This document shows, piece after piece, positions 4,712-30,972 of a stretch of DNA of 33,974 nt. Below the pieces are notes generated by a model that made no database searches, was not told where the DNA came from, and worked only from the letters and a program-made list of their open reading frames with translations. The translations under genes were made by a program, and so were the position numbers. Positions within the stretch are counted from its first letter, which is position 1, and each line of letters opens with the position of its first letter. The stretch is from a virus: positions 1 to 33,974 of IMG/VR virus record IMGVR_UViG_3300042350_000515; one strand, given 5' to 3'.

Positions 4712-4713
4712 GA

Positions 4714-5019
4714 TTATCGGATTATGTACTTTAAAGCAGAAACAAGATTGTTGATTGACTCTGCTGCAGTGTAATAAAGATTCTTTTTACCTCTATCAGA
4801 CTTGTCTACATTTGCCATCCAAGTGGCCTTGAGAGACATTTTTGCTGCAATTGCCTGTAGCCTAACTATCTCTACCGTCGCTACATTAAGTGGTATGTCT
4901 GGCTTTATAATAATCTTAGCAATGAAAGTAAGAGCCGTTGTCAACTCCTGATCATCCATATAGTCTGCAATCTCTGCCAAACCATTTACCATATCTATTG
5001 TTGTTTGTTGTTGCTCCAT
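4714..5019 (-). CDS. Hypothetical helical protein
   Basis: A 101-residue protein that I do not recognise. It looks all-helical and soluble: an acidic N-terminal half (GLAEIADYMDDQELTTAL), a central helix (VATVEIVRLQAIAAKM), and a C-terminal half with KSDRGKKNLYYTAAESIN. No cysteines or catalytic motif are visible. The ATG overlaps the stop of the small resolvase gene (TAATG) with GGAGG just upstream, so the two are translationally coupled. It sits between nuclease genes, which suggests a DNA-metabolism accessory role, but that is context only. Confidence 0.68.
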   Translation of the reverse strand: MEQQQTTIDMVNGLAEIADYMDDQELTTALTFIAKIIIKPDIPLNVATVEIVRLQAIAAKMSLKATWMANVDKSDRGKKNLYYTAAESINNLVSALKYIIR

Positions 5020-5300: not shown

Positions 5301-5469
5301 TGACCTTCCTTTTCTTATAACCAACCTTAAACAACTGAACTTCAGACAAGTGTTTATCAGAACACATCCAAGACGCCATACCAGTTGCAAGATATACTCT
5401 AATAGTTTTTACTTCTTTTTTACAAACCTTACAAGGAAACTTTCCTTCGTAAACGCTATACTTGTCCAC
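5284..5469 (-). CDS. Small zinc-finger-like protein
   Basis: A 61-residue basic protein with Cys13/Cys16 (FPCKVCKK), a beta-rich middle (VKTIRVYLATGMASW), and Cys36 followed by Asp-Lys-His (MCSDKH). This could complete a C-x2-C...C-x3-H zinc site. It starts at a GTG inside the end of the recombinase gene (14 nt overlap) and runs 17 nt into the small resolvase gene. Its ribosome site is weak, so translation probably depends on coupling. Function is unknown; nucleic-acid binding is a guess from the metal site and the basic tail. Confidence 0.6.
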   Translation of the reverse strand: MDKYSVYEGKFPCKVCKKEVKTIRVYLATGMASWMCSDKHLSEVQLFKVGYKKRKVNEREE

Positions 5470-6472: not shown

Positions 6473-9400
6473 GTACATCCTCCAATGTTACGGTTCCGTC
6501 TTTAGTCTTGCCAAAATCAAACTTATAATACTTTCCTTCTTCAATATGCATATATGCTTTTGCAAATGATGTTGGAAATACTGTTATTGAGTGCAGGTCT
6601 CTTTTTGTATCTGCTAAAGTCAATGATGCCATTTTCTTGCCTGCTTTGGTAACTCTAGGCTTAAAAGAAACAACAAACATTTCATCATCTTTGTATGGCA
6701 ACTGTTTATATCCTAAAAATTTAACCAGCGCATGGGACGAACTTTTTATTTCATCAGACGGTATGAAAGATACAATCCTGTTATCGTTACAAAGGACCAA
6801 ATAAGAACGACCCGTCTCAATAGCGGTATTTTCATCATCAAATATACCGACAGACCCAGTCTTATCCAAAATTTCAACTCGTGACCATCCTGTTCCCCTC
6901 TTAATAGATTTTACCATACCCATGAATATATAGGAACCCTTTTCTTCAAAATCAACAATGTCCTGAATAAAAGCGTAGTAATGAGAAGGTATAGTAATGT
7001 TAAACTCTGGAAGATTTAAATATTCATATAAGTTTTCTTTAATCTCTTGATCATTTCTAGGATTATCTGGAAATGTTGCTGCACCAATTACACGAAGTGC
7101 CTGAAGTGCACGAGAGTTTACTCCATTGCCCTTTGTGAATGTAAACTCTTCAAGTTCTTTGTAAGACTTAAAAGGTCGTGCCGATATATATCGTTCTGCA
7201 ATCTTATCAGAGATAAACTTGATTGCCGAGAGTCCAAACCGAATACCCTTACCCTCAATTTTAAAATCAATATCCGAATCATTAATGTGAGGTAGTTTAA
7301 TGCTAATCCCCATTCTTTTCGCTTCAATAAGATATTCAGTTCGTGCATCTTTATCCTTTTCATTCTTTAGAAGTGCAAACATAAACTCTAGTGGATAATA
7401 ATACTTTAGCCATGCTGTCCAATATGATAGCGTTGAGTACGCTACTGCATGGGACTTATTAAATGAATACCCTGCGTGAGCCTCAAAGTCATGCCATAGA
7501 TCACGAGCAAGGTTTGGGCTAATAAAACGAGAAGCACCCTCTATAAACTTATCCTTAAATATGTCAAACTCTTTAGCATCTTTTTTCTTTCCAATGATCT
7601 TACGAACCTTGTCAGCCTCAGACATAGACATACCGCCAAGATGTACGCAAGCCTGCATAACCTGCTCTTGGTAAAGAATACAACCATAGGTTTCCTCTGT
7701 AAATTCTTTCACAACTTGATGAATATAGGATATATTCTGACGACCATGTTTACGATCAACATAATCTTTTCCAATTGTATTCATTGCGCCTGGACGAACA
7801 AGAGCATTTGAAGCAGCAAGTTCTGCTAGATTTTTTACACCCATCTTAATTAGTAGGTTTGTGTATGGTGCTGCTTCACACTGGAACACGCCCTTTGTAT
7901 ATCCATCTGACAGCATTTGATAAACATTTTTATCATTCATATCTATTTTAAGAAGGTCAATCTTTTTACCGTCACGCTCTTTAATTATGTTAATGGTGTC
8001 TTTTAGAACAGACAAAGTCTTTAGTCCTAATGCATCTATTTTAATAAGGCCAACCTTTTCAGCCTCTTCCATATCAATACCGACCACTGGTATGCGATCA
8101 TCAGATCCAGGAGAAGAACGAGTTTCCAACGGCGCATACCTAAAAATTGGATCCTTACTAGTAACCACACCAGCAGCATGAATACCAGTTCCCCTAATAC
8201 GGCCACGAAGTTGTTCACCATATTCTTCTACCTCTGGATATTTTTCACGAAACTCTAATGTTGATTTTGATGTACAGTAATCATCCCACGAATCTACTGT
8301 CTTTAGAACCTTGTTTACATCTGACAAAGGAATGTTTAGAACTCTGGCAACGTCTCTAACAATTCCTTTACCAGTAAACTGAAGGAATGTTGCAATAGAT
8401 GCTACATGTCGGTACTGTCTTACAAGATAGTCTTTAACCTCTTCACGCCTAGTGTCCTGAATATCTGTGTCAATATCTGGAAAGTCATTACGGTCTGGGT
8501 TAATAAATCGGAAGAACAATAGGTTGTGCTGAATTGGATCTATATCTGTAATTCCAAGGGCATAGCAAACTAAGGACCCAGCAGATGACCCACGACCAGG
8601 TCCAACTAGAATCTCTTCCTTCTTTGCCCAGTTAATCATGTTGCTAACAACCAAGAAGTACGGAGCAAACTTTTTATCCTTGATAATTTCTAACTCTTCG
8701 TTAAGCCTGTCTATATACTGCTTGCTTTCAGACAACCCTCTTGCTGTCAAACCTTCCAAAGCAATCTTTGCAAGTTCCTTATCTGGACTCTTGTACTGAA
8801 CTGGCAGCAAGTTTAAGCCTTCTTGAATTTCATAGTCTTCTACAGTGTCTGCAAGCGATAATGTGTTTGTGTATATATCTTCTCTATCAATACCCTGGGA
8901 TTTCATGGCTGCCTTCATCTCTTCATAAGAAAGCAAATGAATATCAAACTTATTAAATGTTATCTCTCTATCTTTACCATAAAGCAAGTCTAGCCTGTCC
9001 ATCATATTAGAACACTTTGCCGACTTAGCATAAGAAACATCTTTAGAGAGTTTGGCATGGGTATTCATAATTAGTTTAAATTCTTGAATTTCTTTTTGCC
9101 CTGGATGAGAATGGTGGCAGTCTGGAGTAACAATAGCCTTAATGTTAAACTCATCTGCTAAATCCAAAAGGTATTTATTTATGTGGGCTTCGTTGTGTGG
9201 CATAACCTCAATATAATAATCACTGCCGAAGTTATCTTTAAACCAACTAATATACTTCTTAGCGAGTGCAAATTCTTCTTCTTCTAAAGCCTTTACCAGC
9301 ACACTGCTTGGGCATGCAGAAGAAACAATAATTCCTTCTTTATATTTTTCTAATATCTTAAAATCAAACCTAGGCTTTTTAAAGAAGCCATCAGTCCATG

Positions 9401-9737
9401 CTATTTCGCTTATCTTATTTAGATTTTCTAAACCAATTTTATTCTTGGCTAGAAGGATAATGTGATTATAGACAAGATCTTGTTGACCTTCTCTTTCATT
9501 CTTATCACGCTTATCGGATATATCAGAACACATATATCCTTCTAGCCCAAGAATAGGCTTAATGCCCTTTGCTTTTGCAACTCGGTACAGTTCCCGATGC
9601 CCAGACAATGTTCCGTGATCTGTGATAGCCAATGCTGGCATACCAAGTTCAACTGCTCGGTCTACTAATTCTTCTGGAGTAGCAATCCCGTCAAAAAGAC
9701 TAAAGTGGGTATGGACATGTAAGCCTACGTAGTTCAT
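6462..9737 (-). CDS. dnaE: DNA polymerase III alpha subunit (C-family)
   Basis: A 1091-residue replicative polymerase. It has an N-terminal PHP domain (about 1-210) with intact-looking metal ligands: HVHTH at 7-11, Asp16, TDHG at 39-42, Glu66, His92, Cys142 and a CHH near 204-206. The palm domain follows, with FPDIDTD near 418-424 holding two catalytic Asp residues, and GRGSSAGS upstream near 378-385. Helix-hairpin-helix and OB-fold-like parts lie in the C-terminal third (for example YIFMGMVKSI and the closing MASLTLADT region). Length matches bacterial DnaE. It follows the SSB gene after a single base. No separate proofreading exonuclease gene is seen in the window, so the PHP domain may proofread; that is inference. 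Confidence 0.95.
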   Translation of the reverse strand: MNYVGLHVHTHFSLFDGIATPEELVDRAVELGMPALAITDHGTLSGHRELYRVAKAKGIKPILGLEGYMCSDISDKRDKNEREGQQDLVYNHIILLAKNKIGLENLNKISEIAWTDGFFKKPRFDFKILEKYKEGIIVSSACPSSVLVKALEEEEFALAKKYISWFKDNFGSDYYIEVMPHNEAHINKYLLDLADEFNIKAIVTPDCHHSHPGQKEIQEFKLIMNTHAKLSKDVSYAKSAKCSNMMDRLDLLYGKDREITFNKFDIHLLSYEEMKAAMKSQGIDREDIYTNTLSLADTVEDYEIQEGLNLLPVQYKSPDKELAKIALEGLTARGLSESKQYIDRLNEELEIIKDKKFAPYFLVVSNMINWAKKEEILVGPGRGSSAGSLVCYALGITDIDPIQHNLLFFRFINPDRNDFPDIDTDIQDTRREEVKDYLVRQYRHVASIATFLQFTGKGIVRDVARVLNIPLSDVNKVLKTVDSWDDYCTSKSTLEFREKYPEVEEYGEQLRGRIRGTGIHAAGVVTSKDPIFRYAPLETRSSPGSDDRIPVVGIDMEEAEKVGLIKIDALGLKTLSVLKDTINIIKERDGKKIDLLKIDMNDKNVYQMLSDGYTKGVFQCEAAPYTNLLIKMGVKNLAELAASNALVRPGAMNTIGKDYVDRKHGRQNISYIHQVVKEFTEETYGCILYQEQVMQACVHLGGMSMSEADKVRKIIGKKKDAKEFDIFKDKFIEGASRFISPNLARDLWHDFEAHAGYSFNKSHAVAYSTLSYWTAWLKYYYPLEFMFALLKNEKDKDARTEYLIEAKRMGISIKLPHINDSDIDFKIEGKGIRFGLSAIKFISDKIAERYISARPFKSYKELEEFTFTKGNGVNSRALQALRVIGAATFPDNPRNDQEIKENLYEYLNLPEFNITIPSHYYAFIQDIVDFEEKGSYIFMGMVKSIKRGTGWSRVEILDKTGSVGIFDDENTAIETGRSYLVLCNDNRIVSFIPSDEIKSSSHALVKFLGYKQLPYKDDEMFVVSFKPRVTKAGKKMASLTLADTKRDLHSITVFPTSFAKAYMHIEEGKYYKFDFGKTKDGTVTLEDVHVS

Positions 9738-9738
9738 C

Positions 9739-10395
9739 TTACCAATCAGTGTTGGTAGACGAAGTTACTGACGGACCATCAAAGCCCAAGTAGAACGCTT
9801 CTTGTTCTGCGTAAGGAACCTTCTTAAGTGCTGACTCCAAAGGATATGGCTCGATACCCTTCCAGTCAAATGGTTCCTTGTCTGGTGCTGATGGAATAAG
9901 TGTATAGTTTGTTTCAGTTCCCTGGCCGTTACGCTTCAACTTCCAAACTACATTTGAGATGCTTCCTGTTTCTAGGGCATACTCACGAATTGTATTAAAT
10001 GATGATTGCTTGCTGATACCCATTGACCAGATAGCAACATACGGTGCCTCAATGCCGTCGTCGACTAGGACATTGCAATAAAAGCGAAGACGGCCACGCC
10101 ATCCAGCCTTTGGATCTTTACGGTGCATTTCTTCAGCCCAGTCACGGCCTTCTGATTCCATAGTATCTACAGCACGACGCTTATAGTCTTTTGGATTAAC
10201 ATGTTCTTTGACAACAAGAGCAAGTCCACGGCTATCGTTATAGTTAGCAGAGTCCTCATCTAGTTCTTCAATGAAACGGATTTTTACTGACTGACCATCA
10301 GCAAGTTTTAGCCACTTGATCTTTGGTCCGTCGTTTTCATATTTTGGCTTATCGAGCAGGGCATTGATATTTTTTAGTCCCTTAATAACGCTCAT
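9739..10395 (-). CDS. Probable single-stranded DNA-binding protein
   Basis: A 218-residue protein between the primase and polymerase genes. It begins with a short helical lead (SVIKGLKNINALLDK), followed by a beta-rich domain with DGQSVKIRFIEEL and a long strand-rich core (GWRGRLRFYCNVLV, APYVAIWSMG, VVWKLKRNG, NYTLIPSAP). The tail ends with TSSTNTDW. The order 'short lead, KWLKLADGQ, OB-like core' is typical of phage single-strand binding proteins of a gp32-like kind, although no zinc-binding set is present. The strong ribosome site AAGGAGAAAA fits a protein needed in large amounts. The call rests on this fold impression and on context; DNA binding is not proven by a motif. Confidence 0.7.
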   Translation of the reverse strand: MSVIKGLKNINALLDKPKYENDGPKIKWLKLADGQSVKIRFIEELDEDSANYNDSRGLALVVKEHVNPKDYKRRAVDTMESEGRDWAEEMHRKDPKAGWRGRLRFYCNVLVDDGIEAPYVAIWSMGISKQSSFNTIREYALETGSISNVVWKLKRNGQGTETNYTLIPSAPDKEPFDWKGIEPYPLESALKKVPYAEQEAFYLGFDGPSVTSSTNTDW

Positions 10396-10419
10396 AGTTT
10401 TCTCCTTTGTGTGTTTGTA

Positions 10420-11364
10420 TTAGTTTAGCATAGACTCTATAGATTTGTCAAATGAAAAGTCTAAATCTTTTATTTCACTGTCAGCCATATCGCCTATATC
10501 CTTGTATTGTTTATTTAGTTTAACTATAGAAACACGAGAGCCAAGTTTTTCAATTATCCTGTCTTTCATGTTTCCACCTGCCTCATCATTATCAGCAATA
10601 ACAATAATGTTATTGAAATACTTTTGAAGCAATTCTATTTGTTTGCTAGACACATTTGCACCTAGTGTTGCCACAGCAGGCATGCCTAACTGGTCTAACC
10701 TGATAGCGTCAAATGATGACTCCACAACATATACTCTATCAGATTTCTTTACACGATGCAAGTTAAAAAGGGTTTTGCTTTTTGGCAAGCCTGGAGTATT
10801 CTTAAAATCTTTACCTTCAACTGATCTACCAACAAATCCCAAGGGGATTCCTTCTGGGCTATGAACTGGAACAGTAACCATGTCTTGTTTATCAGAATAT
10901 CCCAATGAGAACTTAGAAAATGATGAAGGATATATTTTTCTATATGAAAAATAGTTTTTTGGTCTTTCAGAAGCAACAAGGTTGTTGTGTAATCTTTTAA
11001 TAATTAGTTCATCAAAAGACTTATACTTTTCTTCTTCAACTAATGCACGATCAATATCTATAGCAAGATTACTCTGCTTTTCTTTGCTCTTGATAAACCT
11101 GGCAGCCTCAAAATACGATCTTCCAGATGTATGCATTACAAGTTCTATTAGGTCTGCTGATTTTTGACATGAAAAACAAAAGAACATTCCGCTACTTTTT
11201 TGAACTTCTCCTGCTGGTGTTCTATGATTATTATGAAATGGACAAAATATTATAAAGTCTGCATCTAACTCTGATTCAACTGTTACGCCTGATCCCGTAA
11301 GGACTCTCTTGACTTGTTCTGCGGTATATTGATTGGATTGGTTCCGTCTACTCCTGCTATCCAT
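10420..11364 (-). CDS. DnaG-type DNA primase (CHC2 zinc finger and TOPRIM)
   Basis: A 314-residue primase that makes RNA primers at the fork. The N-terminal zinc-binding domain has Cys41/His44 (CPFH) and Cys63/Cys66 (CFSC). A middle part (residues about 110-190, KNYFSYRKIYPSS ... VPVHSPEGIPLGFVGRS) resembles the DnaG/Toprim_N region. The TOPRIM domain has Glu215 (VYVVESSFDAI) and Asp258/Asp260 (VIADNDEAGG). It is shorter than bacterial DnaG (about 600) because the helicase-binding C-terminal domain is missing, as is common in phages. AAAGGAAGAG precedes the ATG. Its 5' end overlaps the upstream small gene by 82 nt, the longest overlap in the window. Confidence 0.92.
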   Translation of the reverse strand: MDSRSRRNQSNQYTAEQVKRVLTGSGVTVESELDADFIIFCPFHNNHRTPAGEVQKSSGMFFCFSCQKSADLIELVMHTSGRSYFEAARFIKSKEKQSNLAIDIDRALVEEEKYKSFDELIIKRLHNNLVASERPKNYFSYRKIYPSSFSKFSLGYSDKQDMVTVPVHSPEGIPLGFVGRSVEGKDFKNTPGLPKSKTLFNLHRVKKSDRVYVVESSFDAIRLDQLGMPAVATLGANVSSKQIELLQKYFNNIIVIADNDEAGGNMKDRIIEKLGSRVSIVKLNKQYKDIGDMADSEIKDLDFSFDKSIESMLN

Positions 11365-11636
11365 TCGCTCTTCCTTTTCCCTGCGTAAACTCCGTGTATA
11401 GATAATTCAAACTCAAAAAATCCTTTTATCTCATTATACCTTATTGTGAAGTCTGGGTCAATATCAAATCTTGGAACATATCCACTCAGCCTCATTTCTG
11501 ATACTAGCAATCTTATATATTCTATCTTTAATCTTCCTATTAAAGCCTCGTCCTGAATAACCCCATCAATATAAAACTTCCTCAAAGACTTATGATGATA
11601 AAAGTCTGGTGGTATGTTTTCCTTATTTTTTGGCAT
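11283..11636 (-). CDS. Hypothetical protein between helicase and primase
   Basis: A 117-residue protein I do not recognise. It starts MPKNKENIPPDFYHHKSLR, has a helical middle (DEALIGRLKIEYIRLLVSEM), then alternating strands (PDFTIRYNEIKGFFEFELSI) and a polar tail. The reading frame is well separated from the helicase stop (12 nt) and its last 82 nt overlap the primase start. A -10-like TATAAT ends five bases before the ATG, and no convincing ribosome site is present. A role with primase or helicase, for example as a loader or adaptor, would fit the position, but nothing in the sequence shows it. Confidence 0.68.
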   Translation of the reverse strand: MPKNKENIPPDFYHHKSLRKFYIDGVIQDEALIGRLKIEYIRLLVSEMRLSGYVPRFDIDPDFTIRYNEIKGFFEFELSIHGVYAGKRKSEWIAGVDGTNPINIPQNKSRESLRDQA

Positions 11637-11641
11637 ACCAT

Positions 11642-11649
11642 ATTATACC
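11642..11649 (-). promoter_or_regulatory. Possible -10 element giving a leaderless mRNA
   Basis: The minus strand reads GGTATAAT, with TATAAT at 11647-11642 ending 5 nt before the ATG at 11636. A transcript started 6-7 nt downstream would begin at or near the A of the ATG. There is no recognisable -35 and only a poorly spaced AGG as a ribosome site. The match is short and the region AT-rich. Confidence 0.4.
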
Positions 11650-12869
11650 TACTTATCTTCAAAATCTTTGTACCTATAGTAGCCTTTGTCAAAATCACAC
11701 TGAACTAGGAAATCTCCCATAAAGCCATTTCTATTCTTTCTAAAAGCACACTCAATAATATCACTGTTTGTACCTCGCCCAAGGGCTAAGACCCAGTCAG
11801 CATCATACGCAATCTGCCTAGACCACGCTGTTTGACCCAGTGTTGGGACTGTAGACAAATCGTTTACATCGTCAGGTGTAGCAGAGGAGATAGCAATAAT
11901 AGGAACCTCTTCGCCAATAGCCATGAGTTTGAGTTCTCTTGAAAGGTTCTTCATTCGTACCGTTTCATTATCTGACTTCTGATTAGGAGCCATTAACTGA
12001 AGGTAATCAACGATTACAAAGTCTGGCTTATACTGATCGATCTTTCCACGAAGGACTGATGGATTAATTTCTCCACCCTGATCGTTTGAGATAATATGAA
12101 ACTCTGGCTTACCCTGTAGATTTTTAGCATGCCAATCTTTAAGCATTTCTAACTCTACTTCTCCGTTGCTTAACTTTCTATGTGACCAACGACCCTCGCC
12201 CATAATCGTAAAGACACGATTACGGACCTCTGTCTCGCTCATCTCAAGACTTATGACTAGTGGGCTACGACCCTGTTTCCAGGCCTGTACAGCGAAATAG
12301 AGAGCCAACCACGACTTTCCGATACCTGGATATGCTAAGAAGACTCCCAACTGCCCTGGCATGATTCCAGAGGGTAGGTAGTTATCAAATCCTGGCAGGC
12401 CAGTCTTTATACCAATATGACCTAATGCTTGTTGTTTCTTGACATTTTCAAAATATGCGATAGCAGACTCTAGGTCAGTAACATCAATATCACGGATAGC
12501 AGCAGTGTTCTTTTTTAACTCTGAGGTCTGTGTTATTAGATTTTCTAAAGCCTTGTTACCCTCACCCTGCTGAACATCACTAGCAGCAGATCTTAAAATA
12601 TCTTTTAGGCTATCTCTTAAATATTCTCCCTGAAGTTCATCAAGATGGTGCTTGGTTGCACCCACCCCTGGAACTGGGTCAAAGTCTCTGAACTTTTCAC
12701 TAACTAAGTCAACTGGCGGTAGCGATGAGTTGTTTTCAAAATAAAGCCTGATGAAGTTCCAAATGTCTGCATGTGTTCTAAGAAGATTTTCTACATTGGC
12801 CTGAAGAAGAACATGTATTTGTTTATCTTGCAATACAGCAGTTATTAGTTTTGACTCTGTGCTATTCAC
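11649..12869 (-). CDS. DnaB-like replicative helicase
   Basis: A 406-residue RecA-fold helicase of the DnaB family, the 5'-3' unwinding motor at the fork. Motif H1 is AYPGIGKSW at residues 179-187 (Lys185), followed by VISLEMSETEVRNR (the H1a segment with Glu209). Motif H2 is FVIVDYLQLM with Asp288, and RKNRNG near the C-terminus is the expected arginine-finger region. Residues 1-110 are a helical N-terminal domain as in DnaB. It starts with a GTG inside the end of the upstream gene (8 nt overlap, AAGGAG ribosome site). With primase, SSB and polymerase downstream it makes a full phage fork set; a separate loader is not obvious. Confidence 0.92.
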   Translation of the reverse strand: MNSTESKLITAVLQDKQIHVLLQANVENLLRTHADIWNFIRLYFENNSSLPPVDLVSEKFRDFDPVPGVGATKHHLDELQGEYLRDSLKDILRSAASDVQQGEGNKALENLITQTSELKKNTAAIRDIDVTDLESAIAYFENVKKQQALGHIGIKTGLPGFDNYLPSGIMPGQLGVFLAYPGIGKSWLALYFAVQAWKQGRSPLVISLEMSETEVRNRVFTIMGEGRWSHRKLSNGEVELEMLKDWHAKNLQGKPEFHIISNDQGGEINPSVLRGKIDQYKPDFVIVDYLQLMAPNQKSDNETVRMKNLSRELKLMAIGEEVPIIAISSATPDDVNDLSTVPTLGQTAWSRQIAYDADWVLALGRGTNSDIIECAFRKNRNGFMGDFLVQCDFDKGYYRYKDFEDK

Positions 12870-13170
12870 TTAACCACTCCTTTGCCATTATCCTACGCTC
12901 TGCTCTTTCTGCATCGTCCCGCTCTTTGTCTAATTTTATTTGAAGTATTTTTTCTGCGTTGTATGCAAAATAATTCCAAGAAGGGGAATGAGCGATGCCA
13001 AAATAATAATTTAGTAAATCATAGCAACCGATCATTCCGTAAGACTCAATAAGTGCATCAGCAGCCCACTGCTCTACATTAAGATTAAGAGACGGTTTTT
13101 GCTCATATCGCTGTGTGTGCAACTTACCATAACGACTAAGCAAAGCCATACGGTCTTTGCGTTCAGCCAT
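12862..13170 (-). CDS. Small protein upstream of the helicase
   Basis: A 102-residue, mostly helical, charged protein that I do not recognise. It contains a tryptophan/tyrosine-rich middle (EQWAADALIESYGMIGCYDLL, then YYFGIAHSPSWNYF) and a long charged C-terminal helix (KLDKERDDAERAERRIMAKEW). It overlaps the upstream stop as TAATG and the helicase start by 8 nt. Tight coupling to the helicase gene makes a loader or regulator of the helicase an attractive guess, but no loader motif is seen. Confidence 0.65.
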   Translation of the reverse strand: MAERKDRMALLSRYGKLHTQRYEQKPSLNLNVEQWAADALIESYGMIGCYDLLNYYFGIAHSPSWNYFAYNAEKILQIKLDKERDDAERAERRIMAKEWLSE

Positions 13171-21162: not shown

Positions 21163-21833
21163 TATACCTCTTCCAGTGTTACAGAAACATTCCAGTAATC
21201 AAACTTGGTTCCTCTTTTTTCAACCGAATATGAAAAATCACTAATAAACATTTCAACTAGTTGATTATATTGCTGGAGATGCTTATACGGCTCTGGCGTA
21301 CCCTTGAATATTCCTTTTCTATCATATGTAAGAAATACCCAAAATGATCCCTTGTGTGAGTCATACCACTCTAACATGTCTGCTGCTCCTGCGCCTCCGT
21401 CTGTTGTGTATGCTTTATGTGGAGACAACCCAGTTGCTGAATTAAAATTTGGAAAATCCTCATGAGACCTAGATGGAATCATGTCCCAACTAGTGCTTAT
21501 TGTAATCTTGTCTGCAATGTGATATGACCTCATTCGGCCATTAATCATTCGCTCCCGCTTTTCAATTCGCTCTGTCTTAATATCAATAGGCTGTCTGTTG
21601 TCATCAGTTAAAAATAAAAACTGGTCAACAAGAGATTCATCCTCTATGCTTTCTGGATCAGTACCAACCTCAAAACCAATTGGGACATACAGTTTTTTCT
21701 TTGGGGTTGTTATGCTTGCAGGGTCTTCTACGAGTGTACCAGAATTTTCAGACCACAGCATACCGCTTGGTCTGTTATATTTTTTACGACCATTGACATA
21801 CAACAGCCTTGGATCTACATCACCTTCTGCCAC
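21162..21833 (-). CDS. Distal-tail (Dit)-like or minor tail protein
   Basis: A 223-residue protein starting at a GTG with a strong AGGGGGG ribosome site, 14 nt inside the end of the tape-measure gene. It is a mixed-strand protein with RMINGRMRSYHIADKITISTSWDM in the middle, DMLEWYDSHKGSFWVFLTY after it, and a closing beta segment (FISDFSYSVEKRGTKFDYW, VSVTLEEV). Size and place directly after the tape measure and before the hub fit Dit, which forms the ring that opens the tail tube. Sequence motifs alone do not prove it, so 'Dit-like' is by position. Confidence 0.62.
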   Translation of the reverse strand: MAEGDVDPRLLYVNGRKKYNRPSGMLWSENSGTLVEDPASITTPKKKLYVPIGFEVGTDPESIEDESLVDQFLFLTDDNRQPIDIKTERIEKRERMINGRMRSYHIADKITISTSWDMIPSRSHEDFPNFNSATGLSPHKAYTTDGGAGAADMLEWYDSHKGSFWVFLTYDRKGIFKGTPEPYKHLQQYNQLVEMFISDFSYSVEKRGTKFDYWNVSVTLEEV

Positions 21834-24800
21834 CTATAGCCACCCCCCTAATTCTTCTATCATCAACCCTCTTGATTGTTGCCATTACTGCTTGTGCAAT
21901 TTCATCTGGATTTGCATCAGTCTTAGCATTAACTGTTAAGGTATATGTATTATTATACACTGAACCGCTAGACAATTCTCCGTTATTTATTTTTCTCATT
22001 GTATCTAGCCCATACGAATCAACAGCATATTTACTCATAATAAACTCGCCTGGAGTTAACATTGCTGGAACTGTATCAGTACCCCTAGCAAATCCACCCA
22101 TTGCAAATCTTTGAATTAAGCCACCCATGGCTTTCCAGTTTGCAAACTGCGATGCTGCTATGGCATTGCCACCAAACTTCTTAATATCTGCTGCAGCCTT
22201 TTTCTTTGCTGCTTCTTCTGCAGCCTTTTTAGCATTTGCTGCCTTTACCTCTGCAGAAAATGCTGCTGCGGAGGCTGCTTTTTGTGCTGGAGTATTTGTT
22301 AGTTCGTCTAAATGGGCATATGGAGTGGCGCCCATCTTTTTAATATTTGCATTAACAATTTCTTTATTAAAGGCATCTGCTCTATCCTTCATATTTAATA
22401 AATCATTAACATGGCTTCCTGCAGTTTGTCCAGCATTCTTAGTAATATTTGCTACTGTAACAGCATTAGCCAATCTTTGCAAGTCTTCTAAATGAAGCGC
22501 TGCAGTTGATCCGCCAGTATTAAGACCATAGTTAAGTGCATCAGCAGTTGAAGATCCTGTACTGCCACTATTATTATTTGTGGTCGCACCGCCAGTATTT
22601 GTCGTGTTCACACCCCTAGGCTTGATGTCTGCTTGACTTGCCACACATTCACCTGTGTAATAATTGTAATATGGTCTTGAAGGTCCACATGGCCCTTGTG
22701 GTGTTGTAGTTGTTGTTCCCTTATCATCCTGAACACAGTTTCCATTTACCATGCTGAATCCTGTAGGACATGGTTTTGCACCTGTCTCATCCTTAACACA
22801 GTTTCCATTTACCATTTTGTATCCTGTAGGACATACTGTTTCGGCATCACTCTTAACGCAGTTACCATTAACTAGTTTAAATCCTGGAGGACATGTAGTA
22901 ACACCTGGACCTTCATACTCTCCAGCGGGAATGATTGGATCTGTATTTACTGTTTGATTCTTATAGGCAGCAATCAAAGCATTAACAATATTAAGAGCAT
23001 CTTGCATTTGCTTAACGAATTGTGCGGAACTAACTCTTGCAAGATCAACCTCATTTTTAATTCTTTCCCACGCATCTCTTGTTTTTCCTAATACAGTAAT
23101 TCCCTCAATCGCTTTTTCTAAAGCAAGTTCGTTAAGTCTTAATGTCTCTCTGTTTGGCTCAAGACTCTTTTGTTCAATATCATAAATTTCGTCTTGAAGT
23201 TCTTTAATCCTTCCCTCAATTTCAATTCTACTTCTGCCGTCTTTAGATCTTAGTTGTGACAGTTCGTACTCTCTTGACTTTTCTAAGGCATCTCTTTGTT
23301 TTGTTACAGCATCGGCTGCAGACTGCGCTCTCATTTCTTGTGCAGCACGAGCAGCAGCAGCAATGTCTCCAGATGTCAAAGCCTCAGCAAGAGTTAGTTG
23401 ACCTTTCTGTTGCTGCGATATTGAGGCATTTGCTTTTTCAACTTCATCAAGAGCCTTTAATCTTTCATCATATTTTTCATTTACCTTGGCCTCTTGGTCT
23501 TCAATTTCTTTTAAGCCTATTTCCTGTATTCTGATCTGTTCTTGTTTTACGGCAATTAGTTCTTCAGCCTTTTTAATTTCATCTTTTAATTTTTTATTTT
23601 CATCATCAAACTTAAATCTTAGCCTTGTTTCTTCTACATCAAACGCTTCCATTGCATTGCTATATCCAGTATCAAATATATCTTGCATTCCTTCAATAGT
23701 TACTTGCTTAAGTTTTAATTCAACCCTTGCTTTATCTACTGCCTTCTGAAGCAAATCTTTAAAATCTTTATTGTCTATACCAAAATTAATTAATAAACCT
23801 TGTAGTGCAGAACTGTCCATAACTGCCTGGAGTTGTTCTTGTGTCAAACTTTCAAATGCTCCAGTGATTTTTGTTAATAAGTTTGCTCTATCTTTCAACT
23901 CTTGCTCTTCTTGTATACCAGCCTCTACAGCGGCATATTCTCTTTTGGCCTTAGTTGATTTATTCCATGCCTTGGTTATCTTTTTTATTTGTTCATCAGA
24001 CAACTTTTTATTGGCAATTGCTGCTGCAAATGTGGCATCTGCTACTGCTTCTAGAGCAACAGAACCCTCTATACCTGCTGCCTGCAATCTCTTAAGTGCT
24101 GCAGTTTGATTGCCTATTTGGTTGGCCATTTTTTGCTGCTCACTAACAAATTCTCCAAGTTTAACAGACTGTAGTGCATCTCCAATGCTCTTTGCACCAT
24201 CTTTTATTTTTATAATATTTCCTTTTTTGTCAAACTCAAACAACTTACCCTTCTGCTTTTCATATTCTTTAGGATCCATTCCGACTATGAGTTCAATCAG
24301 GTCTTCTCCTGCTCCTAGTTTTCTCATATCGTTTTCAATACCGCTAAAAATTTCAATAGTTTTCTTTCCACCAAATAGTTTATTTAGAGACTTGAATGAG
24401 GCATCAAAACCTTCTGTAACCTTGATTTGATTTTTACGAACATCTCTTAGGCGTTTTAAAAGATCATCTAATGGAGATGACTTTGGCTTATTTCCACTTC
24501 CTTTATTTGCTCCAGGTGCTGGCGCATTTGCAGTTATAGATGCCCCCTCTGTAACAGCCTTAAAGCCTTGCTGCTCTTTATAATGTGCAATTAGTGCAGC
24601 CTGAGACAATCCTTTGTACTGTGCTCCACCGTATGTTCGTCCCTCAATTACTGTATTTTCTTTTAGCCATGTCTGATAGTCATCTGTTGCAACAATCTGT
24701 GGGTCTGGAACATTGATGACAGAAGCAATTGTAGTTGTATACACCTTTTGCTGGTCTTCTGTTAAAGTTTTAAAGTAATCTTCATTAAATGCATTAGTTC

Positions 24801-27800
24801 CTTTAACCTGTGGAATAATTTCGTACACCATGGTTGCTGTTAAATCTTTTTTGCCTTCAATGGCGTCAAGCATTGTGTTTAGTTGTTGATAGGCTGCATC
24901 ATTTTCTGTGTAGTATTTAACCAAAACATTAGACGGTATAACTGCGTTTAAATTGTTTAACTTAATCATATTTTTAGCAAAGTCTAGTGCGTCTGAATCT
25001 TCTTCAAATGCTGAAACTTTAGTAATAAATTGTGCCTGTACTGTTTTGTCAATATCTCCCTTAGCGTTAAGAATATTTTGAGCAGCAACACCAATTGATT
25101 CAGATGTAGCACCACTAAACTTTGTTATAATATTCATCATCTTTGGAGCAATGTCTTTGTTATCTGTTGCCATCTGAAGAAGTTGTCTAAAAACTGATGG
25201 AGGAATATCGCCACTTGCCATTTTTGCCTGAATTAAAAATTCTTGACCTTTATCTATTGCGCCATCTTTACGAAGTTGTCCTGCCTGTGCACCAACAACA
25301 TCCATGTAAGCAATTTCATTTGGGTTATCTTTATATCTAGCCTTAGCAGCCTTTTTCATTCCACTCATCATTGACTCTTGCATTCCTCCAGCACTGTTGT
25401 ACTGAGAAACAATATCTTCTTGAATAACTCTTTGTGCTGCTGTTAAATCATTTCTTTTATCAATTAACTTTTCTTGCAATTCATTTGCTTCATTAATTTT
25501 TCCTTGAAGTCTTAACTCTTCAACTTTCTTTTCCATATACAAATCAAATGAATCTAGCATTTGCTTATTTTGCTCCATTGCAATTTTAGCATCTACTGCA
25601 TATGCCGCTCCAAGTTGTGCAGATTGTTGAGTAAATTTCTTTGAGGCAAAATATCCACCAATTGCTCCTGCTGCAGCACCGATACCGCCACCAATTATTG
25701 CTCCAACAGCATTTCCAAGAACTGGGACAACGCTTCCAAGAGCAGCACCAAGTGTTGCTCCTATCGCTGCGCCACCTGCAGCAGATGCGCCTATGCCTAC
25801 CTTTTGCATTGTTTTTTGTCCAGCAAGTTTAGTAATCATGCCAGCATTTTCAATGTTTGACATGTTTGACTGCATTCTCTTTTGATTTTCGGCAATCATT
25901 CTTGTTCTAACTTCAAGAGGGTTTTTATCTAAATCCTCTCCGTTTGGTCCAAGAACTTTTTCCATTTGTGCAATAACTTTAAGGCCTATAGACATATCCC
26001 CTGCTTCTTTAGCAACATTCATTGCAAGACTTTTTGCCTGATTTACATCCATTGCTCCAGACATTACTGCAGTTGAAAGTTGACTTGTTAAATCAGAAAC
26101 TGCTTGACCACCCCTGCCTGCTGCATTTTGTTTTGCTATGTTTTCAGTTAAAGCCTTTCCTTCTTTTGTTTGAGTAAAAGCCTCGCCGTATGTTGTTTTG
26201 CCTGTTGCTGGACCTAGCATTGAGAATGAATTCTTTCTTCTTAGATCCATTTGTTCTGATGCAGTTACTTTACCGCCAAACTTTGCGATACTTTGAATAG
26301 CAGAAGATGATCCTCTAAACTTTTCTGCTTCTTGCAAAACCTTTTCTTGAGCACTATTAAATGCCATTCTTAATGCAATAAATGCTCCAACTGTTGCTGT
26401 AAGCCCTGCAATTACTGCCATTACTGGGCTCTTTAGCATAGGCAAAATCATTGAAAGACCCATCAAAGGCATCATTATTTTTTGAGATATCTCCCCGACT
26501 TTTCCTGGAGCCATTGATCCTAGCATTGCAATACCAGAAGCAGCCATGGCTGCGCCACCAACACCCATTCCTGGCCCCTTGCCTGCTGCGACTCTTGCGG
26601 TCCTCTTGCCTTCTCGCTTTTGAATATAAGACTTAATTCTTCCAGATGGGGTCATTTTTTCTCCATCTTGTGCCATGTTTGCAGCAACCACTGGCTGAGG
26701 AACTGGAGCCTGTGCTGCTATCTTACTTAGTCTCTTGTTATCTCTTTCTAACTTTTTTAGTTTACGACGAAGAGATTTTTGGTTAGCATCTATTGGCCCT
26801 GTTCCGTATAGAGCAGTTCTAGACGCTGCTGCAGCAGACTGTGAAATAGTTAGACCAATCTTTTGTCCTGTTGACTTAGCCTCTGCTATAGAAGATCTTG
26901 CTCCAGCAACTATTGATGAACCTATTGCACTGCTTGATTCTGGAGCATCTGCAAAACCAGGAACTCTTACACCTCTAGGACCTTGAACGATTCTCTTGCC
27001 CTTTTTGGGCTTATTCATTTCTCTTGTATCTTTTGGACTACCTGACTTAACGCCTCTAGTTTTTCTTCTTGTTTTTGGCTTTTCTGTTTTTCCATCTTCA
27101 TCTTCAACCAATTCATCTGGCTTTACTAGAATAGCGTTATGCTTTGCGTGTACGAGTCTCCAGTTAACCTTTTTGCCTTCTTCAAGCCTGTCTATCATTG
27201 CCTGATAGTATTTTTGATCTTCTGGTCCAAGATTAAATTTTGCTATTGTTTCTTTTAGTTTTGGTAATGTTCTATCAATTTCAGCAATCATTGCTTTATG
27301 GTATTCATCAGGAGTCATATTCTTTGCAATGTCTGCCGTTGCATTTCCAAACCAGAACGGAGACTTTCCTGCTGCTGGGCCTTTAACTCCACTTAAATTC
27401 TTTTCTGCCATTTCAAGCATTGATGGCATTCTTTCTGCATAACCTCTTGCTCCAGATGCTCTATCTAGTACACCAGCCTTGCCAACATCTACCAACCTAT
27501 TTCCGCCTAAGTTTCCTTTCTTTAGGTCGTCATCACCACGAAGATTTGCTGCAACTAGTTGTCTAAAATATTGTTCCCTGCTAAAATTGCCTGACAATTC
27601 TTTTGGAGTAAACTTTGGATCATAGGCAGACTCAAGAGCAAACATTGTTTTTCCAGTGTATGGATCCTTAATAACTCTAAGTTCTTGCTTTGGAGCCTCA
27701 AGCCCATGAACATCTCTTGCTATTATTGTTGCTCTTTGCTCTGCAAGCGCTGCTCGCAAATCAGGCATTGGCTTTACATAAACTTTTTTGCCGTCTTCTG

Positions 27801-30800
27801 TTAGGAACACTCCAGAGGCATCACGAGCAGCAACATTGCTGTATCCAGTACCCTTTTCAAGTTGCTTGCCATATGTGGTAATTGGTCTGCCATCAATGTC
27901 TTCTGCGGTTAAGCCTTGTAGTGCTGCTCTTGCTTTTTCAAGAAGTTTTTTCCCTGCAGTACCGCCAATCTTTACTGCACCAGTGTCTCCACCAGATCTT
28001 CCAGTTTTAAATACCCAGTTTCCGTTTTTATCCTGTACTAAAGAACCATTATTTCTTTTATCTGTTAATGTCCAGTCATTTGGATTTTTAGACTTCTTCT
28101 TTCCACTAACTTCTGGTCTTTCGTATGCAACAACCTTGTCACCATCTCGCTTAACATCAAGCATTATTCCTGGGGCTTTTTTAGCAAGATCCTCTATTGC
28201 AGAAACAACAGATGGGTTAGTGTTTGGAGCATAAGTTCTTATATTTTTGATAAGATCTTCAACAGCCATTTTCTTTGCGTCATACTTTATAGTTGAAGCA
28301 GATGCAGCGCCGATGCCAGCAACAGAGTATATCTTTTCAATTGCTGGTGCAATTCTTGGGTCTCTTGCAAGACCACCCATTACACCTGTTTTAAGATTAC
28401 CCATTCGTGAGTATATTACTCTGTCACCTATTTTTGTTCCATCTGGAAGGTTTTGCAAAGACAATATTAAGTTTTTACGAATCTTGTTTGTTACTCTTGA
28501 AGCCTCGTCTGCGGTTAAATTAGAAGGTGGCTTCATTAACTGAGAAGTCATTGTTTCTACAGCACGAGCCTTTCTTATTTCTGCCTCGTATTCTCTTACA
28601 TCTAAAGCATTATTTGTAAGTTTCTTGTGAACTTCTTCTGGAATGTCAAACCCAAGTCCACGATATCCTAATGCTCTTTCAATTCCTCTTGCCCCAAGGC
28701 TTGTTCGTATATCTCCAAACTGATCAGAAATATTTCTTGTTTGCATTTGCTGTGGTTTGGTTGCATGTGCAAAAACTGTATCTGGTTTAGTTCTTTTCTT
28801 TTTAGTTTTAGGAACAGCCGTTCCATCATTAATTAAAGAAGTAATAACTGGTCTATTTGCTGGATCTTGTGCTGCTTGTGCAGGAATAACTGCTTCGCCA
28901 GGAGATAGCAATGCTGGGACAATATCGCCTGCACCCATTGGTCCTGGAACTCTTTCAACGCCTGTTGAGTATCTTCTACTTTGTGGGATACCGCCACCTT
29001 TTCCACCTCTACCTACTGGTCCAGTAAATCCTAATTGTGAAGCGATTGCCCTTTGATATGCTGCTGCAAGTGCATTTACTGCTGCAGTTTCAGAGGTAAA
29101 GGTTTGTCTAAGTTTTTGGTGAACTTGATCTAATGATGCCGCTACTGCAGATGCCTCAAGTTGTTGTTGAGTTAAATAGTCTGTTTGGTTACCAAGTATC
29201 TGTGTTGATGAGCCAGCACGGTTAAACGAGGTTTTCATTGTTGCAAATAACTTAATTATATTTGCAAGTCCGTTAGCCAACAGACCGAATGTCATAAGAG
29301 CAATCGGTCCAATTGCTCCTAGCGCTACGGTGAGAATAGTTAAAAACTTTTTACTTCCTTCTCCCAGGTTATTAAATTTATCTAAAATCTTAGATGCAAA
29401 TTCTACAATTGGAGTAAGAGCCTTTAAGAACTGCTCTCCAACTGGTGCAAGTGTTACCTTAAGATCTTCTATAGACTTTTTAAACTTATATGTTGTTGTA
29501 TTTTCTATCTTGTCCAATTCTCGCTGTGACAGAATTGCTAACTCTTCTGTTGTTGCTTTTGTTAATCCCAAAACTCTGGCTGCCTGAGAGCCCTCTGCAG
29601 TTACGTTCTTAAATAGTGTTGAAAGTCTTGAAAACTGGAACTTTCCAAACAATTGCTCAATTGCTCTTGCACGATTAAGCGGATCTAGTGTATCTAAGGC
29701 TTGTGAAAACCCTACAACAGTTGCTGCAACATCTCCTTTATTTGCTTCAACAATACCTTTAATATTTATGCCAAGCCCTGCGAGCATCTTAGATGCTTTT
29801 TCAGATGGATTGATTAATGATGCTAAACCAGACTTAAGTGCGTTAGCGCCTTCTGATGCATTAATACCACCTTCCTTCATTGCTGTCAGGAAGAATGCAA
29901 GATCTTCAACATCTCCGCCCAATTGTTGAACCACTGGTCCAGCCTTTGGAATTGCAACTGTTAAGTCTTCAATAGATACAACAGTTTGGTTTTCAACTGC
30001 GTTAAGGAAGTCAATCTTTTTTGCTAAATCTTCTGCTGCTACACCAAATGCATTTGTAACAGAAATAGTTGTCTCAAGTGCCTGCTCCTGTTCAACACCA
30101 CCAAGAACAGCAAGTCTTGTTGCTTCGGTAACTTGTGCAGTAAGTTCTGCGCCCATCTTACCCATTGCTGCAGCATTTGCTGCCATCTCCATGGTTTTTT
30201 CTACCGCAACGCCATACTTAGTATATTCTTTTGCAAGTGTCTGTATCTGCTTAACCATTGCGTCAGTTTCTTCTTGCGTAGTAAACATTTCACCATAAAC
30301 ACGCTTAAACCTAATTGCTTGTTCTTCAAGTTTCATGAAGGTTTTTGCAGCAGTAGATCCAAGAAGCATAAGCGGAACTGTAAAACCAACCATTAACTGG
30401 CGACCAGCCCACTGCGTATTCTTACCAAAATTTAATAGATTTGTTGAGCCCTGCTTTAGTAATTGATTTAATAATTGCTGACGCTGTGCTGCAATCTGTG
30501 TTTGTGTAGCAAGATTTTTCATGTCCAGCGTAAGCGGTCTTACAGCAATGGCTTGAAGGGCTCCATTTGCCCCACGACCCATCTTTATATACTGGGTCTG
30601 GATATCTTTTACACGCTCTCGTGCAACTTTATTTATTGTTTCAAATTCAGACTTAAAAAGCCTACCGAAAGTTTTAGTGGCTGCTCCAGTATATCTAAAA
30701 TATTCTCTGGAGGATAGTTTATTTTTTTCTAAAGCATTAGTAAAGTGCTCTGTGCTTGTAGCAACCGTTCTCATGGCTGCTTGGAATTGTCCAGTAGCAT

Positions 30801-30972
30801 TTATGCTGTTCATCAAGTTTTGTGCTTGATTTGCTGCTACCGCTGACGCTGCTGCGCCAGACTTTGACATCTGTGTGTGGAAGGCTGATATTTGACGCTG
30901 TAGAAGTTTTAAACTTGCTAAAGCATCTGACGTATCAATATTTACATGAATATTGGATTGAACATCAGCCAT
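21820..30972 (-). CDS. Giant tape measure protein
   Basis: A 3050-residue protein that would set tail length and fill the tube. Residues about 240-500 carry the classic phage tape-measure core (YGVAVEKTMEMAANAAAMG, SIEDLTVAIPKAGPV, GANALKSGLASLI). Hydrophobic stretches lie near 541-575, 1475-1541 and 1725-1778 (the last Gly/Ala rich), and a coiled coil near 2440-2515. A motif with PALLSPGEAVIPA at about 685 and PAMLTPGEFIM near 2965 appears twice. Between about 700 and 1290 is a non-tape insertion with a kinase-like pattern (see findings). Cysteine repeats with CPxGxxxVNGNCV lie near 2690-2780. AAAGAGGTGTTG precedes the ATG. The gene is 18 nt after the short chaperone. Confidence 0.93.
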   Translation of the reverse strand: MADVQSNIHVNIDTSDALASLKLLQRQISAFHTQMSKSGAAASAVAANQAQNLMNSINATGQFQAAMRTVATSTEHFTNALEKNKLSSREYFRYTGAATKTFGRLFKSEFETINKVARERVKDIQTQYIKMGRGANGALQAIAVRPLTLDMKNLATQTQIAAQRQQLLNQLLKQGSTNLLNFGKNTQWAGRQLMVGFTVPLMLLGSTAAKTFMKLEEQAIRFKRVYGEMFTTQEETDAMVKQIQTLAKEYTKYGVAVEKTMEMAANAAAMGKMGAELTAQVTEATRLAVLGGVEQEQALETTISVTNAFGVAAEDLAKKIDFLNAVENQTVVSIEDLTVAIPKAGPVVQQLGGDVEDLAFFLTAMKEGGINASEGANALKSGLASLINPSEKASKMLAGLGINIKGIVEANKGDVAATVVGFSQALDTLDPLNRARAIEQLFGKFQFSRLSTLFKNVTAEGSQAARVLGLTKATTEELAILSQRELDKIENTTTYKFKKSIEDLKVTLAPVGEQFLKALTPIVEFASKILDKFNNLGEGSKKFLTILTVALGAIGPIALMTFGLLANGLANIIKLFATMKTSFNRAGSSTQILGNQTDYLTQQQLEASAVAASLDQVHQKLRQTFTSETAAVNALAAAYQRAIASQLGFTGPVGRGGKGGGIPQSRRYSTGVERVPGPMGAGDIVPALLSPGEAVIPAQAAQDPANRPVITSLINDGTAVPKTKKKRTKPDTVFAHATKPQQMQTRNISDQFGDIRTSLGARGIERALGYRGLGFDIPEEVHKKLTNNALDVREYEAEIRKARAVETMTSQLMKPPSNLTADEASRVTNKIRKNLILSLQNLPDGTKIGDRVIYSRMGNLKTGVMGGLARDPRIAPAIEKIYSVAGIGAASASTIKYDAKKMAVEDLIKNIRTYAPNTNPSVVSAIEDLAKKAPGIMLDVKRDGDKVVAYERPEVSGKKKSKNPNDWTLTDKRNNGSLVQDKNGNWVFKTGRSGGDTGAVKIGGTAGKKLLEKARAALQGLTAEDIDGRPITTYGKQLEKGTGYSNVAARDASGVFLTEDGKKVYVKPMPDLRAALAEQRATIIARDVHGLEAPKQELRVIKDPYTGKTMFALESAYDPKFTPKELSGNFSREQYFRQLVAANLRGDDDLKKGNLGGNRLVDVGKAGVLDRASGARGYAERMPSMLEMAEKNLSGVKGPAAGKSPFWFGNATADIAKNMTPDEYHKAMIAEIDRTLPKLKETIAKFNLGPEDQKYYQAMIDRLEEGKKVNWRLVHAKHNAILVKPDELVEDEDGKTEKPKTRRKTRGVKSGSPKDTREMNKPKKGKRIVQGPRGVRVPGFADAPESSSAIGSSIVAGARSSIAEAKSTGQKIGLTISQSAAAASRTALYGTGPIDANQKSLRRKLKKLERDNKRLSKIAAQAPVPQPVVAANMAQDGEKMTPSGRIKSYIQKREGKRTARVAAGKGPGMGVGGAAMAASGIAMLGSMAPGKVGEISQKIMMPLMGLSMILPMLKSPVMAVIAGLTATVGAFIALRMAFNSAQEKVLQEAEKFRGSSSAIQSIAKFGGKVTASEQMDLRRKNSFSMLGPATGKTTYGEAFTQTKEGKALTENIAKQNAAGRGGQAVSDLTSQLSTAVMSGAMDVNQAKSLAMNVAKEAGDMSIGLKVIAQMEKVLGPNGEDLDKNPLEVRTRMIAENQKRMQSNMSNIENAGMITKLAGQKTMQKVGIGASAAGGAAIGATLGAALGSVVPVLGNAVGAIIGGGIGAAAGAIGGYFASKKFTQQSAQLGAAYAVDAKIAMEQNKQMLDSFDLYMEKKVEELRLQGKINEANELQEKLIDKRNDLTAAQRVIQEDIVSQYNSAGGMQESMMSGMKKAAKARYKDNPNEIAYMDVVGAQAGQLRKDGAIDKGQEFLIQAKMASGDIPPSVFRQLLQMATDNKDIAPKMMNIITKFSGATSESIGVAAQNILNAKGDIDKTVQAQFITKVSAFEEDSDALDFAKNMIKLNNLNAVIPSNVLVKYYTENDAAYQQLNTMLDAIEGKKDLTATMVYEIIPQVKGTNAFNEDYFKTLTEDQQKVYTTTIASVINVPDPQIVATDDYQTWLKENTVIEGRTYGGAQYKGLSQAALIAHYKEQQGFKAVTEGASITANAPAPGANKGSGNKPKSSPLDDLLKRLRDVRKNQIKVTEGFDASFKSLNKLFGGKKTIEIFSGIENDMRKLGAGEDLIELIVGMDPKEYEKQKGKLFEFDKKGNIIKIKDGAKSIGDALQSVKLGEFVSEQQKMANQIGNQTAALKRLQAAGIEGSVALEAVADATFAAAIANKKLSDEQIKKITKAWNKSTKAKREYAAVEAGIQEEQELKDRANLLTKITGAFESLTQEQLQAVMDSSALQGLLINFGIDNKDFKDLLQKAVDKARVELKLKQVTIEGMQDIFDTGYSNAMEAFDVEETRLRFKFDDENKKLKDEIKKAEELIAVKQEQIRIQEIGLKEIEDQEAKVNEKYDERLKALDEVEKANASISQQQKGQLTLAEALTSGDIAAAARAAQEMRAQSAADAVTKQRDALEKSREYELSQLRSKDGRSRIEIEGRIKELQDEIYDIEQKSLEPNRETLRLNELALEKAIEGITVLGKTRDAWERIKNEVDLARVSSAQFVKQMQDALNIVNALIAAYKNQTVNTDPIIPAGEYEGPGVTTCPPGFKLVNGNCVKSDAETVCPTGYKMVNGNCVKDETGAKPCPTGFSMVNGNCVQDDKGTTTTTPQGPCGPSRPYYNYYTGECVASQADIKPRGVNTTNTGGATTNNNSGSTGSSTADALNYGLNTGGSTAALHLEDLQRLANAVTVANITKNAGQTAGSHVNDLLNMKDRADAFNKEIVNANIKKMGATPYAHLDELTNTPAQKAASAAAFSAEVKAANAKKAAEEAAKKKAAADIKKFGGNAIAASQFANWKAMGGLIQRFAMGGFARGTDTVPAMLTPGEFIMSKYAVDSYGLDTMRKINNGELSSGSVYNNTYTLTVNAKTDANPDEIAQAVMATIKRVDDRRIRGVAIGGRR
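22733..22894 (-). repeat. Three tandem cysteine-rich repeat units inside the tape measure gene
   Basis: The DNA repeats with near-identical blocks at about 22733-22771, 22796-22834 and 22856-22894, spaced 63 and 60 bp. Each encodes CPxG(F/Y)xxVNGNCV with a short acidic linker (for example CPPGFKLVNGNCVKS). A fourth, diverged unit (CGPSRPYYNYYTGECVAS) lies at about 22640-22695. Recent tandem duplication is likely because the match is visible at the nucleotide level. Confidence 0.85.

Follow-up and report, generated by a model that had tools for sequence, protein, structure and literature searches.

Tape measure proteins (TMPs) of phages are commonly regarded as rulers and as channels for the DNA, occasionally with a wall-cutting enzyme attached. 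The TMP of TM4 reportedly harbors a peptidoglycan hydrolase motif. For pb2 of T5, PMC10038345 describes a muralytic peptidase on the TMP. According to PMC13277306 (2026), TMPs are ejected during infection by other phages, and the contractile injection systems of actinobacteria have reconfigurable effectors related to TMPs, represented by Sle1. Iyer et al. 2017 (PMC5512222) described kinase-like domains on large polypeptides of phages, the polyvalent proteins. These domains are proposed to be delivered alongside the DNA and to modify proteins of the host, and are characterized by a lost C-terminal subdomain, a conserved histidine with an insert before the aspartate, and a glutamine in the last N-lobe strand. 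The term “tape measure” is absent from the main text of PMC5512222, as is “kinase” from that of PMC13277306, and none of the open-access papers listed in the literature searches was seen to describe a kinase-like domain in the TMP of a phage. Here, we describe such a domain in the TMP encoded by IMG/VR virus record IMGVR_UViG_3300042350_000515, whose complete stretch of 33,974 bases is called the window in the following. Amino acids (aa) 1025-1290 of this TMP (about 266 aa, 27103..27900) are predicted to form a domain of protein-kinase-like fold that has the full complement of predicted residues for binding ATP and metal. The segment is probably an active ATP-dependent transferase that is carried as an exchangeable TMP payload cassette; it would be ejected and act on a target in the host soon after infection begins.

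The TMP gene (21820..30972) lies on the minus strand, as do all features given below, and encodes 3050 aa. PF10145 (PhageMin_Tail) matches aa 246-443 at 2.6e-23 in a Pfam scan, and tape measure families are matched in a PHROG scan (phrog_10030, 9e-98). Nearby open reading frames (ORFs) on the same strand match minor tail and tail protein families. By profile match, great length, and tail-gene neighborhood, the ORF is a phage TMP.

The first-pass annotation of the window had claimed a kinase-like order of elements in this TMP, and its five motifs all lie where it had placed them. GTGYSNVAARD (aa 1041-1051, 27820..27852) takes the nucleotide-loop position and, in the AlphaFold2 (AF2) model, is seen as a loop plus a short helix (40-48) that separate strand 32-36 from strand 50-53, the first two of the domain. 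GKKVYVKPMP (aa 1061-1070, 27763-27792) contains Lys1067 (27772..27774), the predicted strand-3 lysine on model strand 59-65, and AALAEQRATII (aa 1074-1084, 27721-27753) contains Glu1078 (27739..27741), the predicted α-C glutamate on model helix 68-84. GDDDLKKGN (aa 1146-1154, 27511-27537) forms the loop after model helix 128-141 and includes Asp1147 and Asp1149 (27526..27534) as well as Asn1154 (27511..27513), the predicted metal-binding asparagine of D-x4-N. Asp1149 is the aspartate with the D-x4-N spacing and is the predicted catalytic residue; both Asp1147 and Asp1149 are invariant among the relatives described below, and Asp1148 is variable. RLVDVGKAG (aa 1159-1167, 27472-27498) finally harbors Asp1162-Val-Gly1164 (27481..27489), the predicted metal-binding DxG.

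Relatives were collected from IMG/VR viral contigs. A first domain scan gave 20 loci; profile scans reported 132 and then 297 relatives, and the best 80 of each were used; the same phage may be represented by several contigs. Alignment A3 comprises 37 sequences (<90% identity), the most distant of which shares 44% identity with the window domain, and delimits the domain together with alignment A2, the AF2 model, and the fold searches. A second set holds the 74 sequence-distinct full-length copies in the collected loci and leaves out those with 231 residues or fewer. Lys1067, Glu1078, Asp1147, Asp1149, Asn1154, Asp1162, and Gly1164 are invariant in both sets (37/37 and 74/74). They include all six residues that the first-pass annotation had singled out (the lysine, the glutamate, an aspartate of GDDD, Asn1154, Asp1162, and Gly1164), and the lysine and both aspartates, on whose conservation it had staked the claim, are kept throughout. 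The agreement goes beyond chance: A3 has 35 invariant columns of 266, and the chance of six out of six named residues falling among them is about 3.5e-6, a crude estimate, as residues that look functional tend to be conserved anyway. Across the 74 copies, invariance holds for 26 of 278 columns, which include the catalytic set and contain no histidine. Gly1043 and Ser1045 of the nucleotide-loop position are likewise kept in every copy, and an invariant Gln1096 (model position 92) stands at the beginning of the strand preceding the last N-lobe strand.

The catalytic stretch of protein kinases reads HRDLKPxN...DFG. The consensus of the family, LRGDKDLxxGNLxGNxLADVG (4 of the 74 copies fall outside the regular expression used), recalls it and can be read in register with it. 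The ratio of nonsynonymous to synonymous change (dN/dS) of the domain is 0.054-0.132 in 11 informative pairs of 13, the other two being identical in one case and almost devoid of synonymous change in the other. The domain is under purifying selection, which, like the invariance of its residues, is established by computation.

The AF2 model, computed with A3 as input, has a predicted local distance difference test score (pLDDT) of 89.2 and a predicted template modeling score (pTM) of 0.87. It runs through a strand, a short helix, a strand, the strand with the lysine, the helix with the glutamate, two strands, a helix, the catalytic loop, DxG, and a series of helices (181-188, 195-199, 203-207, 209-213, 217-240, 246-262, and 267-275). 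The order of elements that had been claimed from the letters alone reappears in it (lysine strand, glutamate helix, Asp1149/Asn1154 loop, Asp1162-x-Gly1164). As modeled, the two-lobe layout, the strand-3 lysine and the α-C glutamate, and D-x4-N followed by D-x-G are those of the protein-kinase-like (PKL) superfamily. The places of these residues in the secondary-structure order suggest a lysine-glutamate bridge and a grouping of the two aspartates and the asparagine around ATP.

Structural searches with the model, which the first-pass annotation had proposed as a check, returned kinase-like folds. Foldseek against the PDB places CtkA first (E 6.7e-4) and HipT second (1.9e-3) with TM-scores of 0.36-0.38; CtkA is the only match below 1e-3, and the remaining matches listed are kinases or kinase-like. 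VIA-align gave Z-scores of at least 8 for 76 of 1000 aligned chains, while models without a clear match usually peak at Z 7 to 8, and the 50 chains listed are all kinase-like folds by title or, where the title is silent, by the known nature of the protein. Its Z-scores are 12.1 for CotH, 10.9 for CtkA, 9.9 for PI4KII-α, 9.6 for MavQ, 9.4 for HipT, and 9.3 for both DrFam20C1 and HipA. A viral structure library contributed five matches below 1e-3 (E 5.3e-5 to 1.4e-4, probability 1.00, TM up to 0.50), all proteins of 829-1340 residues. Three of them, all from phages, bear an annotation, which is portal in one case and ADP-ribosyltransferase in the other two; the following two matches (1.1e-3 and 1.3e-3) are annotated PI3K/PI4K. 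The likeness to HipA and PI3/4-kinases that the first-pass annotation had sensed is found among these fold matches and did not extend to sequence, where the profiles PF07804 and PF00454 remained unmatched. Neither outcome that it had named as refuting, a model lacking the kinase-like fold or relatives in which the lysine and both aspartates vary, was obtained.

The transferase would be a kinase of proteins or small molecules, or possibly an AMPylase. A partly overlapping explanation is that the kinase-like fold performs a chemistry other than phosphotransfer to protein, such as AMPylation, glutamylation, or phosphate transfer to lipids, sugars, or nucleotides. The fold neighbors are indeed a mixture of protein kinases (CtkA, HipA, CotH) and lipid kinases (PI4KII, MavQ, VPS34), and the family sequence is far from known kinases; the combination of D-x4-N and DxG, however, favors ordinary γ-phosphate transfer, and nothing points specifically to AMPylation. 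This explanation is the best of the alternatives and still rather unlikely.

The domain behaves as an exchangeable cassette. For a sample blind to the kinase, viral contigs were searched with the TMP N-terminal part alone, and the best 80 of at least 600 were taken, of which 58 are complete ORFs, unique by exact sequence, with near-identical TMPs retained; the other 22 run off the contig or duplicate another. The kinase-like domain is present in 28 of these 58 TMPs, which are alike in their N-termini (in one, L184, the ORF is broken after the domain); a DUF3626-like cassette is present in 5, neither in 25, and both in none. In blastp comparisons of the window TMP with its relatives, a variable slot (~aa 703-1350, 26923..28866) opens between conserved flanks. 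The N-terminal flank match ends at aa 699-702 in L200 and L204; in L213 and L220 it extends to 815 at reduced identity. For most of the kinase-less relatives compared, the C-terminal flank match starts again near aa 1351 (L204 from 1216). The closest kinase-less relatives have about 300-360 aa of other sequence between the flanks. Five relatives (L200, L204, L212, L213, L220) are 85-88% identical to the window in their N-termini and lack the domain; others with equally close N-termini carry it.

The domain also changes place, lying at about aa 735-1042 in six relatives (L240, L256, L260, L100, L081, L098) and at about aa 1258-1627 in more distant ones. In L261 it was seen at aa 2832-3108 of a 3982-aa TMP ORF that runs off the contig. 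Its divergence is uncoupled from that of the TMP chassis: compared to the window, L189 is 97% identical in the N-terminus and 52% in the domain, and L097 is 38% identical in the N-terminus and 46% in the domain. Presence, absence, and exchange of the module are in this way shown by computation.

Could the enzyme act in the producing cell during assembly, on tail parts, on the TMP, or on the host late in infection, and merely stay in the tail? Since the TMP is synthesized in the infected cell and packed afterwards, the domain can fold and act there, and the computations are silent on the site of action. The absence of the domain from close relatives, however, makes it dispensable for tail assembly as such, and an ejected carrier would be a costly route to a cytoplasmic enzyme. 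We regard action during assembly as improbable. Somewhat less probable again is a catalytically dead pseudokinase that serves as a scaffold for binding or tail architecture. Kinase-like folds are often recycled as binding modules; against this, the predicted catalytic residues, rarely retained by pseudokinases, are present in all 74 copies, and the module is optional among relatives. A purely accidental likeness between this part of the TMP and kinase motifs, which would fit the lack of a sequence match to any kinase family, is highly implausible in view of the confident globular model with its kinase-like structural matches, the invariant motif residues (74/74), and a domain that is better conserved than the surrounding TMP in distant relatives such as L097.

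An early-acting, ejected transferase is favored for three reasons. The invariance of the predicted catalytic residues speaks for an active enzyme; a position that is optional and exchangeable speaks against a needed tail part; and the carrier belongs to a protein class that is ejected by other phages, which speaks for delivery to the host. The TMP would reside in the tail tube with the kinase-like domain unfolded or compacted, and would be ejected before or together with the DNA. The domain would then refold in or at the host cell, where catalysis on a substrate could begin and a host target might be modified early in infection. Unfolding in the tube and refolding upon ejection are assumed, since the folded domain should be too large for the tail lumen.

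Several observations weigh against this reading. Tail lumen dimensions make it unlikely that a folded domain of 266 aa would fit. The TM-scores of the Foldseek matches in the PDB are low (at most 0.39 among the matches listed). Scans of the domain against Pfam, NCBIfam, PHROGs, and PADLOC gave weak, unrelated names at most, and sequence and profile searches of the PDB returned an S-layer protein, designed bundles, a PKC C2-type domain, and others (E 0.002 to 3), with no kinase fold among them. The spacing from Asp1149 to Asp1162 is 13 residues, as compared to roughly 18 in classical kinases. The TMP N-terminus has an equally low dN/dS (0.019-0.111 in the same 11 pairs), so that purifying selection is not peculiar to the domain. 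The domain is known here from sequences of uncultured phages, and it was undetected in the TMPs of the three Streptomyces phages examined. Profile-profile comparison with kinase families, the other check suggested in the first-pass annotation, also failed to place it: hhalign of A3 against CotH (24 sequences) remained at background level (E 0.38), as it did against SrkA relatives and one HipA sequence, none of them significant.

The best A3-CotH stretch, though non-significant, aligns the helix and the aspartate and asparagine of the catalytic loop. This register is a mere anecdote, because a control with alignment A4, which covers the domain upstream, scored alike (15.3 against 15.2 for A3). 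In global mode hhalign gave a meaningless alignment. At E up to 1, neither the domain nor nine of its members matched Pfam CotH (PF08757), and the domain likewise had no Pfam match to PF00454 (PI3/4-kinase). HipA_C (PF07804) was unmatched by the domain and its members in Pfam scans, and a PF07804 search of the virus record was negative (0/1), with controls positive in 4/14. As the CotH, HipA, and PI3/4-kinase profiles fail, the domain is not placed in those families. No relative was found by tblastn of three domain members against isolated phages, and a fourth member, searched up to E 10, gave fragments in 7 isolated-phage records at E 1 or worse. In a pattern-based search of a species-genome collection, 302 stretches fit the pattern and none is a relative, although distant cellular relatives may escape such a search.

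Upstream of the kinase-like domain, the slot holds a second domain (~aa 731-1008, 27949..28782), which was delimited by alignment A4, an AF2 model (pLDDT 89.0, pTM 0.78), and fold searches. Its best fold-search Z-score is 4.1 and the viral structure library holds nothing below 0.001; an unmatched fold need not be a new one. Within the collected loci, its profile matches solely kinase-bearing TMPs (19/19 unique copies). The upstream edge of the slot is marked by a linker motif found by a regular-expression scan, VPALLSPGE (PGE motif, aa 685-693, 28894..28920). A similar motif occurs near the TMP C-terminus and, in some relatives, also between cassettes, and two PGE motifs flank the kinase-like domain in L081, L100, and L245. 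Seven further TMPs (L235, L236, L242, L243, L248, L251, L252) were seen to have the motif twice in mid-protein with a cassette between. Judged by these sequences, cassettes look as if they had been added at a repeated PGE linker.

An alternative cassette occupies the slot at about aa 695-1090 in L235, L236, L238, L243, L248, and L251. Pfam similarity to DUF3626 was found in 2 of 10 slots scanned and lies below the cut-off (7.1e-5 in L236, 0.013 in L235). DUF3626 was therefore dropped as a firm identity, and the label DUF3626-like is kept for a cassette that we take to be perhaps ADP-ribosyltransferase-like. Six of the same loci supplied the sequences for the DUF3626-like profile. Of the five complete matches counted above, four are thus seeds of the profile, and the remaining one, L237, is very similar to the seed L236. 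The cassette also resembles a protein adjoining the portal gene of Actinomycetia phage DSL-LC01.

A wider reading is advanced more tentatively, as one that is slightly more easily doubted than believed. Across a large group of tailed phages that are uncultured, the TMPs may serve as a payload bay with swapped effector cassettes (kinase-like, DUF3626/ADP-ribosyltransferase-like, and several unrecognized) and PGE linkers at the edges. Such a polymorphic platform of injected effectors would parallel the MuF toxins of phage heads and the Sle1-type effectors.

The window may be a piece of a larger phage, as kinase-bearing relatives were found on contigs of 115,665 and 118,809 bases. The N-terminal 650 residues of the TMP have tblastn matches in 641 isolated-phage records, the best of which are Streptomyces phages (~30% identity) and which also include staphylococcal and enterococcal phages. 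The three Streptomyces phages examined among them belong to Stanwilliamsviridae, and an actinobacterial host is possible on the basis of these similarities. Packaging and replication genes lie on the same strand at 169-13170; among them are the large subunit of the terminase and a DNA polymerase of 1091 aa (phrog_405), with RecA-, primase-, and helicase-like ORFs judged by eye. Further along the TMP, a glycine-zipper-like stretch (aa 1733-1778, 25639-25776) matches PF13488 at 2.2e-4, under the Pfam cut-off, and could be a candidate membrane-inserting segment. Cysteine-rich tandem repeats of the type CPxGFxMVNGNCV were seen by eye at aa ~2694-2750 (~22723-22893), and the cysteine-rich repeats of this C-terminal part have weak EB/EGF-like Pfam matches.

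If the favored reading of an ejected transferase is true, phages can ship a host-modifying activity inside the tail, ahead of any phage gene expression. The relatives, 297 as reported in one viral scan, form a candidate family that can be tested, and comparing the variable slot among otherwise similar TMPs offers a rule for finding more.

Among known systems, CotH is the best structural match (PDB 5jda, 5jd9; root-mean-square deviation 4.1 over 217 residues, 10% identity). It differs in that its Pfam profile misses the TMP domain and in that the latter rides on a phage tail protein. HipA, HipT, and CtkA resemble the domain in fold (Z 8-11), with CtkA and HipT as top Foldseek matches, yet HipA_C finds no counterpart in the TMP domain, which has its own 13-residue distance between the two aspartates. 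HipA-type kinases moreover belong to a toxin-antitoxin gene pair, whereas the TMP domain is part of a tail protein (an antitoxin partner was not searched for). PI4KII-α, VPS34, and MavQ share the fold as well (Z 8-10); PI3/4-kinases differ by a profile that the domain does not match, and nothing in the data indicates a lipid substrate. Polyvalent-protein kinases likewise sit on large phage polypeptides; in contrast to them, as characterized in PMC5512222 by the loss of the C-terminal subdomain, the TMP domain has modeled C-terminal helices. As to their conserved histidine and glutamine, no histidine is invariant in the TMP domain, and Gln1096 is. T5 pb2 and TM4 likewise carry an enzyme on the TMP, but act on peptidoglycan, whereas the domain described here is predicted to use a nucleotide and sits in a swappable slot in mid-protein. 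Sle1, as described in PMC13277306, shares a TMP-like chassis with exchangeable functional domains; it differs in belonging to contractile bacterial nanomachines and in its C-terminal functional domain, in contrast to the phage TMPs considered here. Enzymes on TMPs and a swappable TMP-like chassis have already been described, and co-delivered phage kinase domains have been proposed; a kinase-like cassette in phage TMPs appears, by the open-access papers listed, to be a new combination of them.

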